Virus record (IMG/VR): IMGVR_UViG_3300028859_000069
Span: 1-21,485 of that record
Source of the DNA: a virus
Length of the DNA: 21,485 nt
Direction: 5' to 3' (one strand)
Of the stretch, positions 5,055 to 21,327 are shown one piece after another (position 1 is the first letter of the stretch; every line of letters starts with the position of its first letter). A model generated the notes under the pieces. That model made no database searches. It was not told where the DNA came from and saw only the letters and a program-made list of their open reading frames with translations. Position numbers and translations under genes: made by a program.

Positions 5055-7351
5055 TAGAGTACAGTCCCCTCCTTCCCAGTAAAGTCGCCGTGCTGATGTT
5101 GTTGAGTAGCCGCTGGCCAGTTGGTGGTGCTAGTCATGGCGTCAGGAACACCAACCATTCCTCCAAGACCATATGGGTTATATCCCCCATGGCTAGTACT
5201 GCTCGGATAGTCGGTCACGGTTGGAAGGTCCTTAAACTCCATCATAATAGGCTTATGGTCCGTCCCCCTGAGTTGGAAGTGGTTCCCACTATCTTCATAG
5301 TATAGCGAGAAGCTATGCCCATCAGGATTCATGTTTGGGACGACGTGCCTCTGTATCTGATCCCTCAGGGCATCCTGCGCAGTTCCCTCATGACCAAACA
5401 GTGACAATACGGGGAATAATGGCCTATGGTTATCATCAGTCAAATTGATCCTGGATGGGTCAAGTTTCACCATGGCGGCCTGTATTGACCTAGATAACTC
5501 AGCGGGAGTTCCCTTATATACGTCCTTACTCACCCACAGGGTTCTCCCATTCACATTGGCTGTGGTGTGCCCTGACAGTATGAGGTCGTCTATGGCCGTG
5601 GTCATGGCAGCAGCCGGGGTCTTACCATCCTGAACCATCCCCATAGCGTATGTGATCGCCGCACTCTTCACATCAGACACGATGCTTTGGCGCTGAAAAT
5701 TATCTGCTGCAGTAGATTTACTCCACTGCATCCAGTCGTTATTCGACTGCATGATCTTGTCGAAATCCTCACGAGTCGACCCCTTCTGGGACCCCACGGT
5801 CTTCTCCAAGTCCTTGGCGCTCATTAGCGCTCCCATCAACTTATCTTGGAATGGGGCACCATAGTGTGACTCAACAGACCACATATCACCTGGCAAATTA
5901 CCGTGATTCACTAGATCATTTAGGACTGCCGCCTGGTCATCAGGATGGTATGATTGTATTGTGTCATGCAAAATTTTTGCGGCCTGTCTAGGTCCTGATC
6001 CCTGGATCTGTCCAACGATCTGCTGTGCTTGCGACTTATCAAGCAGGTGCATCTCATGCATCGAGAGATTCAGATACTTAGAGTCGTCCTCACCACTCGG
6101 GGCCGCGCCCTGATACTTCTTGAGCAATGAAACCATGTTCTGAAACTTATCTGGGGATGGGTCATCCCGATAGTTTTGGGTAGCAGAAGCAATATCCTTG
6201 TTGTTGGAGGAGAGGTACTGGATAGGATCCTCATGTAATTGGCGTATGCTCTCCTGCACAAACTTCTGTGTGCGACTAAACACTTCAGCATCGTGGTCAA
6301 AATGTTGGTTATTGGGATCAGACTTCAGGGACGCGTAGAGACTGTCCTGCTCCTTTAGCAGTGATTGCTCATTCATCCCAGTGATGTTGTCCTTGATCTT
6401 GGCAGCATCGGAGTTGATGGCCAGCTTATCGGCGACACGCATGGCGAGGTCCTGTGCCTCCTTTGGCTTGTATCCATGTGCCTCATAGTAGGCTGCAGGA
6501 AATCCCTTAAACACTTGATCGGGAAAGACATCAGCCTTCTTCAATAAGTCCGTCGTCTCGTCGATTGCCGTCTGTTTGGCGGCAATGTTCTGCGACTGTC
6601 TGGCAGTCTGAATTGAATCCTCAAGGAAGTGGCGTGTTCGCCCCTCAATGTATCCTCTATTAAGGATCTTTTCGGCAAGATCGGGGTCAGTATTGACGAC
6701 TCCATACGCTGCCTGGGAAGTGACTTGCTCCTTGAGGTCACGGGCCATCTGGGGAGCGATCGTACCGTATGTTGCATCAATCTTCTTGAACAGCATGTCG
6801 GTCTGCTTATACAACTCCCCACCAGCATCGATGTTGGGAGACTTGAGATTAGTGCGATAACTATCAAGCATCTGATTTGGGGCCAGGGCAAAATCATTGA
6901 ATCCTTTCTGCATCATCACATCACTCTGAGTCTTAAAGGCAGACTCAAGGCGTGTCTTCTGCAAGTCGTTGTACTCCAACTTCAGCTGGTTGGACGCCAG
7001 GCGATTGGGCGCATTCTTCAACAGGTCTGGCAAGTTATCAGTGAACAACTGCTGAACATTGTGTGAGAAATTAGGGTCAGAGTAATTCTTCGGATCTGCC
7101 ATGAATTTATCAACCATGTTGGCATGGTTAGTCATGGCATTCGACACATATGACTGAGCGGCAATGTGGGCATGCATCTCACCAATATCAGCTATGGTGG
7201 CAGATCCCTTATTGATCGATTCTCCCAGTTGCTGCATGCGCTCACCAACCTGAGATCCAAAATCCTCAGCAGTTGAGCGTGCCCCAGTCTGTGATTCGAC
7301 TGGTAGCATCGCCTCTGAGTAGTACTCTCCCTCTGGTCCTCCTTTTGCCAT
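5054..7351 (-). CDS. Internal virion protein, long helical (gp15-like position), 765 aa
   Basis: A long, Gln/Asp-rich, mostly helical protein with no recognised enzyme motif. Repeated heptad-like stretches are visible (NQLKLEYNDLQKTRLESAF, about 120-140; TDMLFKKIDATYG, about 185-200; SQNIAAKQTAIDETTDLLKK, about 250-275). The last 60 residues are Gly/Ser/His-rich. Length and place directly after the gp14-like gene match the core protein gp15 of T7-type virions, which helps form the DNA-ejection conduit. The assignment rests on synteny and size, not on a diagnostic motif. The minus strand has GGGGGAGG upstream of the ATG at a long spacing, and the gene starts one base after the upstream stop. 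Confidence 0.7.
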   Translation of the reverse strand: MAKGGPEGEYYSEAMLPVESQTGARSTAEDFGSQVGERMQQLGESINKGSATIADIGEMHAHIAAQSYVSNAMTNHANMVDKFMADPKNYSDPNFSHNVQQLFTDNLPDLLKNAPNRLASNQLKLEYNDLQKTRLESAFKTQSDVMMQKGFNDFALAPNQMLDSYRTNLKSPNIDAGGELYKQTDMLFKKIDATYGTIAPQMARDLKEQVTSQAAYGVVNTDPDLAEKILNRGYIEGRTRHFLEDSIQTARQSQNIAAKQTAIDETTDLLKKADVFPDQVFKGFPAAYYEAHGYKPKEAQDLAMRVADKLAINSDAAKIKDNITGMNEQSLLKEQDSLYASLKSDPNNQHFDHDAEVFSRTQKFVQESIRQLHEDPIQYLSSNNKDIASATQNYRDDPSPDKFQNMVSLLKKYQGAAPSGEDDSKYLNLSMHEMHLLDKSQAQQIVGQIQGSGPRQAAKILHDTIQSYHPDDQAAVLNDLVNHGNLPGDMWSVESHYGAPFQDKLMGALMSAKDLEKTVGSQKGSTREDFDKIMQSNNDWMQWSKSTAADNFQRQSIVSDVKSAAITYAMGMVQDGKTPAAAMTTAIDDLILSGHTTANVNGRTLWVSKDVYKGTPAELSRSIQAAMVKLDPSRINLTDDNHRPLFPVLSLFGHEGTAQDALRDQIQRHVVPNMNPDGHSFSLYYEDSGNHFQLRGTDHKPIMMEFKDLPTVTDYPSSTSHGGYNPYGLGGMVGVPDAMTSTTNWPAATQQHQHGDFTGKEGTVL

Positions 7352-17267: not shown

Positions 17268-17561
17268 TTATAGTAATCTTATGAGTCTATCTGTGCGGTA
17301 CCAGTGGTACTTAGACCCTGGACCTCGTGCGAACCCTATCCATTCTAAATAATAAGGCATACAAAGTAAACAACAAAAAATATTCCCCGCAGCCGCCTGA
17401 ATGTGCCACCCACGACCTTCCACACAGCAACCCATGAGGAAGAAATCAAGATCACGAAACACATATCCATGACTAGAATAATATAGCAAATCAGCGTCAA
17501 AATCAAGCCCAGCATCGCTATACATTCTCCGAATTTCCTCCTCATATATATTGGTGTTCAT
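17268..17561 (-). CDS. Small protein of unknown function between TerL and portal, 97 aa
   Basis: I do not recognise this firmly. The start at ATG 17561 (MNTNIYEEEIRRMY) is chosen because AGGAG lies 10 nt upstream; the longer frame from 17600 would add an Arg-rich leader (NLRRRRRS) translated from within TerL. The gene overlaps the TerL end by 20 nt. It contains GLDFDADLLYYSSHGYVF, a GRGWHIQAAAGNIF segment, a hydrophobic cysteine-rich stretch (FCCLLCMPYYLEWIGFA) and a basic end (YHWYRTDRLIRLL). The WHIQAAAG/FARGPGSKYHW pattern loosely recalls small acetyltransferase-like proteins found near the packaging genes of podoviruses. That is only a suggestion. Confidence 0.6.
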   Translation of the reverse strand: MNTNIYEEEIRRMYSDAGLDFDADLLYYSSHGYVFRDLDFFLMGCCVEGRGWHIQAAAGNIFCCLLCMPYYLEWIGFARGPGSKYHWYRTDRLIRLL

Positions 17562-18909
17562 CGATCGCCTTCTCCTGCGGAGGTTTACCCGCCTCCCCAT
17601 ACTTGGGACGATCCCTCATCCCCATAGCACCAGTGCGGAAACCATCCGCGGCATGACTCGTCCAGTCGTGCAGTGGAGTGTTGCTGTATGTCTTCGTGTC
17701 CTCATTATACTTCTTACGATACTGACGCAATGCCTCGATGCCACGCTCACATCGCTTCATGCTGAAATAACACCTGGGTAACAGGGACCTCACGGCTTCA
17801 ATTCCATCCGCAACCTCATGCTGGTGGACTGCCTGAAACTTGATCCCCAATCCACGGGCAATCTGCTTACGTGACTTACCGTCGCCGCTCAATTCACGCA
17901 CCGAGATGTCGTGTGGGGCGATGTGCTTCCCATAGTAGTACTCAGAGCGGTGCTCCCCATCCTTAATGGACGCCTGCCCTGATAACACCTTGGCGTAGTG
18001 TGTTAAGCCCTCGCCGCTATTCTCATAGTAGTCGATTATTCGCACCTCCACACCATACAGTTGCACGAACCATATGGTGGTGCTATCGTTCATTCCGAGA
18101 TCCCACCACGTATGGACTGGGAGCTTTGGATCATAGGGGATATCCTCCATGATGCGACCCTGCTTCTCAGCCGTCAGCATGTGAGATCCATAGTAACTCC
18201 CAATGAATGGTGAATCAAAGCTGCAGAAATACTCCTGCTGGACCATAGCCTCCTCCATTCCGGAGTCGCGCTCCTCCTGAATCTGCTCATCACTAAAGAC
18301 TGGCTTCCCATCCTCGCGCCTCGTCCCAGCGTCGCCAGCCTTCAGGACCTGGCAGAACCACTTCTTATTCTTCTTCGCCATCTCCAATAGCGTGTACCCA
18401 TGGTTCCTCCCACGTGCAGTATAGATGAACACCGCCCAACCACCATTCTCCAATAGTATGGGGCGGATGTAATCCCACGCGGCGGGATCATGCAGGGAGT
18501 ACTCAGAGAAGACGCAACCAATGGGATTCGTCCCCACCAATGAGTTGATGTCGTCCGTCCCCACAACTTGGTACATCGACCCGTTCGTGAAAGTGACGCG
18601 CATCTCAGTGCCGTTCTTACTGGCGACCAGGGACTGTGGGAAGTGGTCTAGGAATGCCCTACCATTCCGCGTCATCCCATTCCATACGATCGCCCTGCCC
18701 TGCTTATAGGTTGGGAGCAAGTGCCAATACAACCCCACGCGCTCCTGACTCTTCGTCGCGACAAGATTGATCGCCATGAGGTCCTTCCCCGCACGACGAT
18801 GCCACACTAGTGCCGCGCGCTTCGCCTCAGCATCCCCCTCCATGTATGACCATGCGGGGATCTGGTATTGCCTCGGCTCATAATTATATGGAAGGATTAG
18901 CTCACTCAT
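17542..18909 (-). CDS. terL: Terminase large subunit, 455 aa
   Basis: An ATP-driven DNA-packaging motor with nuclease. The N-terminal ATPase has a Walker A-type loop HRRAGKD (37-43), a Walker B strand with E136 in CVFSEY (132-137) and the coupling motif YTARG (163-167). The C-terminal RNase H-like nuclease shows acidic residues D270 (TWWDLGMND), D293 (IIDYYE), D334 (APHD) and D415/D422 (HDWTSHAADGFR). The length fits compact podovirus terminases. The usual Walker B Asp is Ser (SE instead of DE), a variant that I recall also occurs in related podoviruses. The start overlaps the TerS candidate stop as ATGA. It docks on the portal encoded downstream. Confidence 0.93.
   Translation of the reverse strand: MSELILPYNYEPRQYQIPAWSYMEGDAEAKRAALVWHRRAGKDLMAINLVATKSQERVGLYWHLLPTYKQGRAIVWNGMTRNGRAFLDHFPQSLVASKNGTEMRVTFTNGSMYQVVGTDDINSLVGTNPIGCVFSEYSLHDPAAWDYIRPILLENGGWAVFIYTARGRNHGYTLLEMAKKNKKWFCQVLKAGDAGTRREDGKPVFSDEQIQEERDSGMEEAMVQQEYFCSFDSPFIGSYYGSHMLTAEKQGRIMEDIPYDPKLPVHTWWDLGMNDSTTIWFVQLYGVEVRIIDYYENSGEGLTHYAKVLSGQASIKDGEHRSEYYYGKHIAPHDISVRELSGDGKSRKQIARGLGIKFQAVHQHEVADGIEAVRSLLPRCYFSMKRCERGIEALRQYRKKYNEDTKTYSNTPLHDWTSHAADGFRTGAMGMRDRPKYGEAGKPPQEKAIDEHQYI
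17572..17576 (-). promoter_or_regulatory. Shine-Dalgarno site deciding the start of the 97-aa gene
   Basis: The minus strand reads AGGAG 10 nt before ATG 17561, inside the 3' end of TerL. No such site precedes the alternative start at 17600. Confidence 0.6.
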
Positions 18910-19362: not shown

Positions 19363-19935
19363 TTACTCGGGTTTTGCCTTGCTCATCAACCACTTGTATA
19401 GGTCCGCACATGCCCTTATATCTGCCATTGCATCATGGGCTCCCTCAAGAGTTTTATTCAGTAGTATCTTGTATGCTTCCTCAAGTTTGGGCCACTTCTT
19501 TCCGTATGGCCCTGGTAGTGCACAAAGATCAGTTGTTGCTTGCATCGTGCAGAAGAATTGCACATTTGGTAGAGTACTAAGTGATGGCATCCCATGAATA
19601 TGAAATGCCCGCTCAAGTACTATGATATCATACTTCACGTTGTGGGCAACTAATACTTTCACGTTCTTCAATAACCTTTGGATTAGCAACAGTACTGCCT
19701 TCTCATTGACACCGAACTCTGTGGCGATCTCAGTCGTAAAGCCATGTACTTCTGCGGCCTCCTTAGGGATCATGAACCCATCTGGCTTGATTATCAGGTT
19801 GATCTCTGCCCGTACTTTCCAGTCCATGTCAAATAGGATTCCACCAAATTGGACCATGCGTGGTTGGCAATCAGCAGTTGGAGCCTTTTTGAAGTCTCCC
19901 TTACCTGTGGTTTCTGTGTCGAAGACAAGAATCAT
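19363..19935 (-). CDS. DnaQ-type DEDDh 3'-5' exonuclease, 190 aa
   Basis: All three exonuclease motifs are present. Exo I is FDTETTG (5-11, catalytic D6 and E8), Exo II is AHNVKYD (97-103, D103), and Exo III is HDAMAD (167-172, the HxAxxD pattern with H167 and D172). VHGFTTE (64-70) is also typical of the DnaQ/RNase T family. The enzyme removes nucleotides from 3' ends of DNA or RNA using two metal ions. It is a stand-alone domain. The gene directly precedes the TerS candidate (1-nt gap), so it is transcribed with the packaging genes. That is unusual, since such nucleases normally sit with replication genes. The role could be DNA-end processing, nucleotide recycling or proofreading. No Shine-Dalgarno site is visible. 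Confidence 0.88.
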   Translation of the reverse strand: MILVFDTETTGKGDFKKAPTADCQPRMVQFGGILFDMDWKVRAEINLIIKPDGFMIPKEAAEVHGFTTEIATEFGVNEKAVLLLIQRLLKNVKVLVAHNVKYDIIVLERAFHIHGMPSLSTLPNVQFFCTMQATTDLCALPGPYGKKWPKLEEAYKILLNKTLEGAHDAMADIRACADLYKWLMSKAKPE

Positions 19936-19996: not shown

Positions 19997-20173
19997 TTAC
20001 TTTATTGCAGAATGCTTCTGGAAGTGGGCACCAGAGATCGTGGGATGGTGTCTCCTCAGTCCGTCAACTCTAGGGCCCCCTGGGCCATGTTCATGGAATT
20101 CGCTGACGCTCATGTAGCAGTTGATGCCTGACGGCATGAATGTTGGAGTATGGGTGTGGTCTACCTGTGTCAT
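19997..20173 (-). CDS. Short histidine-rich ORF, 58 aa (possible first gene of the late operon)
   Basis: ATG 20173 to TAA 19997 encodes a 58-residue product beginning MTQVDHTHTPTFMPSGINCY. It has nine histidines, some as HTH, HEH and HH pairs, two Pro/Gly clusters and no hydrophobic segment. It ends 61 nt before the exonuclease gene and starts one base after the downstream 21-bp promoter-like repeat, so it would be almost leaderless if that repeat is a promoter. M13 or M21 are alternative starts. No Shine-Dalgarno site precedes ATG 20173. The frame could be chance, since it is short and nothing is recognised. The histidine spacing would allow metal binding, but this is speculation. Confidence 0.4.
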   Translation of the reverse strand: MTQVDHTHTPTFMPSGINCYMSVSEFHEHGPGGPRVDGLRRHHPTISGAHFQKHSAIK

Positions 20174-20194
20174 TCTAGTATAACCTAAAGGTAT
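20174..20194 (-). promoter_or_regulatory. Promoter-like direct repeat, proximal copy
   Basis: In the minus direction the core reads CTTTAGGTTATACTAGA. It matches the distal copy (20235-20255) at 19 of 21 positions. The core resembles the SP6 RNA polymerase promoter (ATTTAGGTGACACTATAGAA) around TTTAGGT and TAGA, but is one or two bases shorter between them. It also contains TATACT, which is close to a bacterial -10 box. It faces the late operon. Confidence 0.5.
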
Positions 20195-20234: not shown

Positions 20235-20255
20235 TCTAGTATACCCTAAAGTTAT
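20235..20255 (-). promoter_or_regulatory. Promoter-like direct repeat, distal copy
   Basis: In the minus direction the core reads CTTTAGGGTATACTAGA. It starts 61 bp from the matching start of the proximal copy and differs from it at two positions. Two near-identical copies at the head of a 20-kb unidirectional late block, and none with the full core elsewhere in the window, suggest tandem promoters or activator sites. Confidence 0.5.
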
Positions 20256-20679
20256 CCTCGGGAATGGCTCCCGAACCCCCGATTTTTATGCCCTTAACAC
20301 CACAATCAAGTCACATCTATTACCTAATCTAATCAAATGAATAACCAGCATTAATACATCGTAATCCAGGGACTCAGATTTATTCCTAATCGTAATTTTA
20401 TTTATAGATAGGTATTACACAAGGAACCACCGTAATATCACTCCAATGTCAATCCTAATATAATAAATACAATGGTTGTGTTAAGGGTATTAAAGGTATT
20501 ATCAATTTTATAAATCAAAAAAATCCAAAAAATAAGTCAAAATTTAAGTAATATCCTTAATACAACCATGATAATTTTTAGATAAGTCCTTAATAGACAA
20601 CACTTTATAAATATTAAGGCCCACAACACAATTCTACGTATATCTGCGCACATCTGCGTTGTTACTCCATGATCCATGT
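20256..20679. other. AT-rich non-coding control region (candidate origin or divergent promoter region)
   Basis: No reading frame longer than about 15 codons begins here on either strand at the ATGs I checked. The stretch is clearly richer in A and T than its surroundings. It holds a 21-bp inverted repeat (20472-20492 with 20549-20569) and repeated CCTTAA-type motifs (20291, 20474, 20554, 20587, 20612). Its place between the leftward late operon and rightward genes fits an origin, a divergent promoter region, or both. No convincing sigma-70 promoter was found for the rightward genes. Confidence 0.5.
20472..20569. repeat. 21-bp inverted repeat with 56-bp AT-rich centre
   Basis: The left arm (20472-20492, starting ATGGTTGTGTTAAGGG) and the right arm (20549-20569, which reads ATGGTTGTATTAAGGA on the minus strand) are complementary at 19 of 21 positions. 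The 56-bp centre is almost entirely A and T. Each arm carries one copy of the CCTTAA(C/T)ACAACC motif. Confidence 0.75.
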
Positions 20680-20882
20680 GTAGCTATTTGTGTTTTCATG
20701 ATTCGCAGGTCACCAGACCTACAATCGTCACGAGCACCTCATGCCAGAACCTCGTCAAAGTCGACGAGAACCTGTCATTCGGTCCTCTACGATTGTTGCT
20801 GCACTGTTTGCTATCGCAAGCCAGTGCATCACCGATCTGGCTCCCTATTGCAAAAACGAATCATGAAAACACAAACAACTAC
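20680..20882. ncRNA. Candidate structured element (cloverleaf RNA or cruciform) closed by a long inverted repeat
   Basis: The arms TTTGTGTTTTCATGATTCG (20687-20705) and its exact complement (20857-20875) extend to 26 bp with two mismatches (20680-20705 with 20857-20882). Nested inside without conflict are AGGTC-ACCA-GACCT (20707-20720); ACAATCGT (20721-20728) with ACGATTGT (20789-20796) enclosing CTCGTC-6 nt-GACGAG (20751-20768); and a hairpin of 12 pairs with one bulge (20800-20811 with 20816-20828, loop TATC). On paper this is a four-way-junction cloverleaf. The start codon of the next gene (20863) lies in the closing stem, so a cis-acting translational control RNA is one reading. A free structured RNA, a DNA site for packaging or replication, or an invertible segment are alternatives. 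No match to a known RNA class was recognised. Confidence 0.55.
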
Positions 20883-21150
20883 CCAAACGGATCACCGGAA
20901 CAAGTACTACGCAGTCACCGCAAAAATCCTCGTAATTCGCGAAGACGACACCGTCATCTACAGCTTCCAAGACCCCATGCTCTGGGACCCCAAAACCCAA
21001 AACTACACCTCACTCTCCACCGACCCAGACAAGTTCAGCACCATAGCTGAAGACTTCGAAACCGCAAAATCCGAATTCTGGTTCAAGTGGAACACATACT
21101 CCAAGCGCCGCTTTGGCTACAGCGTCCCACTCGATCTCACCTGGATCTAA
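20863..21150 (+). CDS. First rightward gene, unknown function, 95 aa
   Basis: The likely start is ATG 20863 (MKTQTTTQTDHRNKYY). The frame is open back to 20659, but that part encodes an unlikely Cys/Arg/Ser-rich peptide and coincides with the structured element, so it is excluded. No Shine-Dalgarno site is present, and the ATG lies in the right arm of the inverted repeat. The protein is soluble and beta/alpha in look (YYAVTAKILVIREDDTVIYS, about 15-34; a Trp/Phe-rich end EFWFKWNTYSKRRFGYSVP, about 71-89). It resembles no family I know. Codons on this strand favour C endings and avoid G, unlike the late genes. It is probably an early or accessory host-interaction gene, inferred from its position and orientation. 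Confidence 0.6.
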   Translation: MKTQTTTQTDHRNKYYAVTAKILVIREDDTVIYSFQDPMLWDPKTQNYTSLSTDPDKFSTIAEDFETAKSEFWFKWNTYSKRRFGYSVPLDLTWI

Positions 21151-21186: not shown

Positions 21187-21327
21187 ATGAAAATTAAATT
21201 CATCAACAACATAAAACCCGAAACAGAATACACCGACCTTCGAAGCGCCGACCTCCGATTCGCCAACCTTCGAAACGCCGACCTATCCAACACCGACCTC
21301 ACAGACACCGGCATCACCATAAATTAA
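21187..21327 (+). CDS. Miniature pentapeptide-repeat protein, 46 aa
   Basis: ATG 21187 to TAA 21327. After MKIKFINNIKPETE come six five-residue units: YTDLR, SADLR, FANLR, NADLS, NTDLT, DTGIT. These follow the A(D/N)LxR pattern of pentapeptide repeats, which fold as a right-handed quadrilateral beta-helix. Six units would make only about one and a half coils. Larger relatives include DNA-mimic gyrase inhibitors (Qnr, MfpA), but no such role can be claimed for so short a protein. It may be a remnant, an oligomer-forming unit, or a host-directed peptide. It lies 36 nt after the previous gene on the same strand. No Shine-Dalgarno site is seen. Confidence 0.6.
   Translation: MKIKFINNIKPETEYTDLRSADLRFANLRNADLSNTDLTDTGITIN

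Follow-up and report, generated by a model that had tools for sequence, protein, structure and literature searches.

A conserved fold, almost certainly an RNA, upstream of the terminase genes in a group of podoviruses

What kind of element is closed by a perfect inverted repeat that overlaps the start of an early gene in a virus genome, on which strand is it read and what might it do there? The locus in question lies in IMG/VR record IMGVR_UViG_3300028859_000069, a virus record of 21,485 bases that was analysed over its whole length and is referred to here as the window. TTTGTGTTTTCATGATTCG at positions 20687-20705 is perfectly complementary over 19 base pairs (bp) to positions 20857-20875, as a sequence-only reading that first described the element had recognised. 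The two form the only exact 19-mer inverted repeat in the entire window with arms no more than 250 nucleotides (nt) apart. That reading also gave the element longer, imperfect arms, and these exist in the form of an ungapped 29-nt repeat (20677-20705 and 20857-20885, complementarity 90%), with the closing helix running on into an outer stem and reaching further out than had been proposed, to about 20672-20892. Sequence comparison and folding indicate that the minus strand almost certainly encodes a conserved, structured RNA, a folded molecule of 190-220 nt that is common to at least eight related bacterial viruses, all of them podoviruses.

The folded element and its strand

Both strands of the element fold far beyond chance, as anticipated: the minus strand at -109.6 kcal/mol (z -12.6) and the plus strand at -82.9 kcal/mol (z -10.1), with none of 200 shuffles matching either. 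The element is the most extreme 220-nt fold of the window, and likewise in the nearest named relative, Manatee Spring podovirus (MW202510). Assignment to the minus strand, which is also the strand of the late genes, is based on several asymmetries. Among paired alignment cells read on the minus strand there are 20 G-U against two A-C combinations (p 1.2e-4 by cells), a difference that becomes seven against one (p 0.07) when counted by columns, cells of related sequences being non-independent. The late strand gives the better fold in all eight members, a covariance model of the RNA scores 146-173 bits on the minus strand but at most 20-25 bits on the opposite strand, and conserved purine mismatches become U.C mismatches if read on the plus strand.

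Read in minus-strand order, the element comprises a long closing helix (P1), a purine loop, a second helix (P2) and a three-way junction with a hairpin (P3) and a rod (P4). The loop above P1 has a U5 tract on its 5' side, followed by GGGA opposite GUGA, which can be read as tandem G.A pairs. The parts are listed below, with the basis of each in brackets.

20672-20892, minus strand: whole structured RNA, including the extended closing helix (folding)
20857-20875, minus strand: 5' arm of P1 (CGAATCATGAAAACACAAA on the plus strand), in which the start codon of a divergent early gene lies in complement (inverted-repeat search)
20852-20856, minus strand: conserved U5 internal-loop tract topping the 5' arm of P1 (homologue comparison)
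20834-20841, minus strand: 5' strand of P2 (GCCAGAUC), with GGGA, one half of the conserved purine loop, before it (fold and alignment)
20797-20831, minus strand: P3 hairpin (fold and covariation)
20721-20796, minus strand: P4 rod, with the conserved motif UGACA (20773-20777) opposite UGGC (20743-20746) (fold and homologue comparison)
20712-20719, minus strand: 3' strand of P2 (GGUCUGGU), with the loop's GA half (20710-20711) after it (fold and alignment)
20687-20705, minus strand: 3' arm of P1, the perfect 19-bp partner (inverted-repeat search)

The four-way cloverleaf that had been drawn from the window's sequence gives way to this conserved minus-strand arrangement of a long closing helix and a P2/P3/P4 three-way junction. 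One of its parts, a 5-bp hairpin AGGTC/GACCT (about 20708-20721), is not conserved, the bases concerned forming the 3' strand of P2 and the GUGA loop in homologues, whilst the 8-bp long-range stem is present as the base of P4 and the other hairpins as parts of P3 and P4.

Homologues were located in IMG/VR phage contigs via TerL/TerS synteny and DNA patterns: L009 (IMGVR 3300006052_000046), L010 (3300037264_000423), L163 (3300002301_000032), L156 (3300005563_000050), L159 (3300017988_000452), L288 (3300025410_000039) and the diverged L315 (3300020059_000003). An alignment of six members, the window included, was analysed with RNAalifold and by pair counting. Double-sided changes that preserve pairing are seen at 33 of the 55 pairs, a figure reached in none of 500 shuffles, and 95.5% of cells are paired, compared with 74.3% in shuffles and 37-47% when the structure is slid along the alignment. 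Compensatory changes in several helices, beyond both shuffled and slid controls, are what a structured RNA is expected to display. At the top of P1, for example, AUUCG/CGAAU, UGAUC/GAUCA and UUUCG/CGAAA all occur, and P2 is found as CCAGAUC/GAUCUGG and CUUGUC/GACAAG. The six-member model also recovers L288, a sequence outside the model whose contig came from TerS synteny, at 109.6 bits (E 2e-32). L315 is a partial match only (23.3 bits); the sequence of its P1 and P2 has been replaced and yet still pairs, and the UGACA/UGGCG of P4 is retained. The UGACA motif lies opposite UGGC in all eight members.

Not all of the closing helix contributes to this evidence. The part of P1 formed by UUUUCAUG/CAUGAAAA, which overlaps the early start codon, is invariant and lacks covariation, and the case for an RNA therefore rests chiefly on P3 and P4. 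Nor is the length of P1 taken as evidence by itself, because template switching could also give arm identity. The proposal of a novel phage RNA is nevertheless well supported: its internal helices are kept with compensatory changes, and Rfam offers no match.

Distribution and comparison with known RNAs

The element is single-copy in each genome and occupies one syntenic locus, which rules against a miniature inverted-repeat transposable element; no second copy was found in the window's record. Wherever a relative's record covers the region and its TerL identity is about 66% or higher, the element is present; the RNA model has no match in MW202510 (TerL 64%), L011 (64%) or L319 (62%). Structure scans of MW202510, L011, L013 and L014 revealed different structures, namely AT-rich hairpins and a second structured region ahead of TerS, none of which the RNA model matches. 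Neither the element nor its L163 homologue gave anything other than short chance matches by blastn against 50,697 phage records, and searches for relatives with the exonuclease and early proteins (described below) singly returned almost nothing. A pattern scan of bacterial genome contigs produced nothing element-like by helix check among the stretches retrieved from the matches listed, and the element may yet occur in sequenced bacterial genomes.

The RNA falls outside any catalogued RNA family, in keeping with the earlier failure to recognise a known class. No match to Rfam 15 was found in the window at gathering score (the best sub-threshold hits reach 16-17 bits against cut-offs of 45-52) and none was found for L163; ARAGORN detected no tRNA or transfer-messenger RNA genes in the window. 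A retron non-coding RNA was considered and rejected: no RVT_1 domain (PF00078) was detected in the window record, G001, G002, G011, G012, G013 or G019, of which the window, G001 and G002 are fragments, whereas positive controls were detected. The open-access literature, to which the limited search was confined (subscription papers and preprints lay outside it), yielded no description of this RNA.

Four named systems offer points of comparison. The packaging RNA of phi29 has a closing helix and a three-way junction. The present element shares both and lies on the strand of the packaging genes, but among all Rfam families searched no covariance model, that of the phi29-type RNA included, matches the window or L163; moreover, these phages have genes for a TerL and a TerS-like protein, from which the RNA is set apart by about 1 kb and by a distinct late promoter. 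In ColE1, a structured 5' RNA is followed by the origin (the RNA II/RNA I system, described also in the introduction to PMC7157519). The order of structured 5' RNA and candidate origin is similar here and an antisense geometry is possible, but the locus belongs to a phage with its own replication genes and no RNA I counterpart was identified, similarity having been compared via Rfam only. The T4 origins oriF and oriG combine a promoter with an A+T-rich unwinding element carrying a priming R-loop, the minimal origin being about 100 bp (PMC3016281). The likeness is an A+T-rich origin opened by RNA, proposed here from position; the difference is that the passage of PMC3016281 concerned mentions no large conserved RNA fold, whereas here a covarying RNA of 190 nt precedes the A+T-rich region. 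Some mycobacteriophage prophages need an origin that expresses a non-coding RNA, and the RNA-based origins of Alma, LadyBird and RedRock serve extrachromosomal prophage replication, their deletion leaving lytic growth normal (PMC7157519). What they share with the present locus, compared by description only, is a phage non-coding RNA region linked to replication. T4 oriF and the mycobacteriophage origins are best regarded as precedents for a mechanism, by analogy, rather than as evidence of membership.

Genomic setting and the adjacent AT-rich region

The late virion genes of the window form a block on the minus strand (TerL at 17542-18909, portal, capsid and tail), and position 20863 on the plus strand is where the early genes begin. 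Of the named relatives MW202510 is the closest (TerL 64%, portal 54.5%), pelagiphages such as HTVC010P being more distant. The locus of the RNA is invariant in all eight members: on the late strand, with the terminase genes about 1 kb downstream. Three further features are relevant here.

20863-21150, plus strand: divergent early gene of 95 amino acids (MKT...), its start codon inside P1 (open reading frame and homologue comparison)
20316-20615, no strand assigned: most AT-rich 300 nt of the record, beginning 72 nt to the 3' side of the element as read on the RNA strand; a candidate for an unwinding element or origin (AT scan)
20474-20567, minus strand: long AT-rich hairpin with arms GGTTGTATTAAGGATATTA and TAATACCTTTAATACCCTTAACACAACC, inside the AT-rich region (hairpin search)

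The early-gene start codon falls within the 5' arm of P1 in all eight members, one of which (L010) has a contig that begins inside the P1 arm. The arm sequence at the start codon is ATGAAAAC in six, ATGAAAAA in L288 and ATGAAACG in L315. In L163 the second arm copies still more of the early gene, giving a 34-bp perfect inverted repeat (5579-5612 and 5840-5873) made up of early-gene codons and a copy that lies beyond the 3' arm of the RNA; this suggests that the template switched recently or that selection is strong. AlphaFold predicts the early protein with fair confidence (pLDDT, the predicted local distance difference test score, of 80); the model has no significant match in the PDB and the protein no Pfam family. 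Elsewhere among the early genes, a short open reading frame contains a 15-nt periodic direct repeat (21228-21302, plus strand; GCCGACCT...) that is pentapeptide-repeat-like.

Six relatives carry a sigma-70-like sequence, TTTACW-N17-TATATT, just before TerS (TAGGAT in L010; the scoring excluded L288), in most cases so near the TerS start that the mRNA is predicted to be leaderless. Because this promoter-like sequence stands between the element and TerS, the element is unlikely to be a simple leader of the late operon, one of the roles first suggested for it. Upstream of the late promoter lies a second conserved region (20039-20097, minus strand; (C)CAGGGGGCC...GACACCANCCCACG), also present in MW202510 and L316, which may serve as a DNA site for packaging (cos/pac) or regulation. 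Between this region and TerS the window has a DnaQ-like exonuclease gene (RNase_T; 19363-19935, minus strand) that is absent from that place in the homologues examined there. TCTAGTATAMCCTAAAG occurs twice on the plus strand, at 20174-20190 and 20235-20251, 61 nt apart (0.04 expected by chance), which suggests a promoter- or operator-like pair; it was not recognised in relatives.

In all eight members an A+T-rich region follows immediately 3' of the RNA on its own strand, as expected of an R-loop or RNA-primed origin: in each record (three of them 40-43 kb long) the 300 nt richest in A+T begin -16 to +87 nt from the RNA 3' end. TAATAACC occurs at +186 to +261 in six of the eight, as the sole copy on that strand, and long AT-rich hairpins are present in the region in most members. 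The first 150 nt show a G skew on the RNA strand of +0.28 to +0.61 in all eight, and the nearest complete relative has its GC-skew minimum at the divergence point. At +113 to +180 on the RNA strand, L163, L159, L010, L009 and L288 have TTGGG(R)CAT or TTTTGGGGG and then a run of A/T. G clusters of this type favour R-loops.

What the RNA may do

The explanation that we favour, tentatively, is that the element is an initiator or regulator RNA acting at an adjacent origin. The RNA would start inside the divergent early gene and extend at its 3' end into the AT-rich, G-skewed, repeat-bearing region, which would itself be the replication origin. The folded 5' domain, with or without bound protein, would hold the nascent transcript whilst the 3' part formed an R-loop, opened the origin and could be cut to a primer; alternatively, the folded domain may gate the R-loop step. 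Transcribing an RNA whose 5' arm covers the opening codons of the early gene would also work against early transcription, tying replication to the early-late switch. That no terminator was found directly 3' of the element in the window or L163 speaks for an extension of this kind. The replication role raised by the sequence-only reading is plausible from the adjacent AT-rich region. Several observations weigh against it. Upstream of P1 no conserved promoter was recognised, only weak, non-conserved candidates. The AT-rich region is also the expected site of divergent promoters, AT richness and skew are not specific to origins, transcription orientation likewise shapes skew, and in several members the G skew is ordinary by comparison with other windows of the same record. 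MW202510 keeps the AT-rich region and, like L011, has no match to the RNA, so the RNA would be dispensable for replication in some relatives. Finally, the mycobacteriophage non-coding RNA serves prophage rather than lytic replication (PMC7157519).

Other explanations account for parts of the same evidence. That the start codon lies inside P1 in every member would suit the main rival, antisense control, in which a minus-strand RNA complementary to the leader and start of the early mRNA blocks its translation or transcription. Antisense RNAs of the CopA/RNA I type act by such blocking, the L163 repeat has a second arm that tracks coding sequence, and an early mRNA started from the candidate -10 boxes, which lie beyond the element, would carry the element's complement. 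We nevertheless consider this unlikely, given that pairing with its own 3' arm ties up the 5' arm in a very stable helix, that the conserved unpaired motifs (the purine loop, UGACA/UGGCG) point more to a bound protein or to tertiary structure than to complementarity as such, and that assignment of the early promoter is weak. The same start-codon position could mean that the complementary plus-strand fold is a cis-acting leader of the early mRNA that hides the start codon, and the plus strand does fold well; this is improbable, however, in view of the G-U/A-C asymmetry, the model scores and the purine mismatches that turn into U.C.

The very long closing helix, the strongly conserved internal motifs and the restriction of the element to one lineage among relatives would also fit a stable trans-acting non-coding RNA, a decoy or ribonucleoprotein component made in infection and protected by that helix. 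Such an RNA would be free to sit anywhere, whereas this one has a fixed locus beside the AT-rich region and early gene in all eight members, and no terminator was found directly 3' of the element in the two members scanned (the window and L163); we regard it as distinctly unlikely. Least probable of all is a mobile inverted-repeat element, or else a structure at the DNA level only, such as a cruciform or a site for packaging or recombination. Long perfect inverted repeats are what such an element would have, and template switching could keep the arms identical, especially in L163, but the strand asymmetry, the conserved internal helices with noncanonical loops and the single copy per genome at one fixed locus all argue against it.

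In its most specific form, the origin-linked explanation would place a large conserved RNA fold at the heart of a phage origin, as a new type of initiator RNA whose structured 5' domain controls R-loop priming at the adjacent unwinding element and whose arms, mirroring the start of the first early gene, couple replication to early-gene shut-off. We consider this rather doubtful as it stands. Few structured RNAs are known from lytic-type phages outside model systems. If the RNA is indeed an initiator, environmental podoviruses of this group would join the systems with RNA-controlled replication; as an antisense regulator, it would instead give these viruses an early-late switch whose RNA arm copies its target gene.
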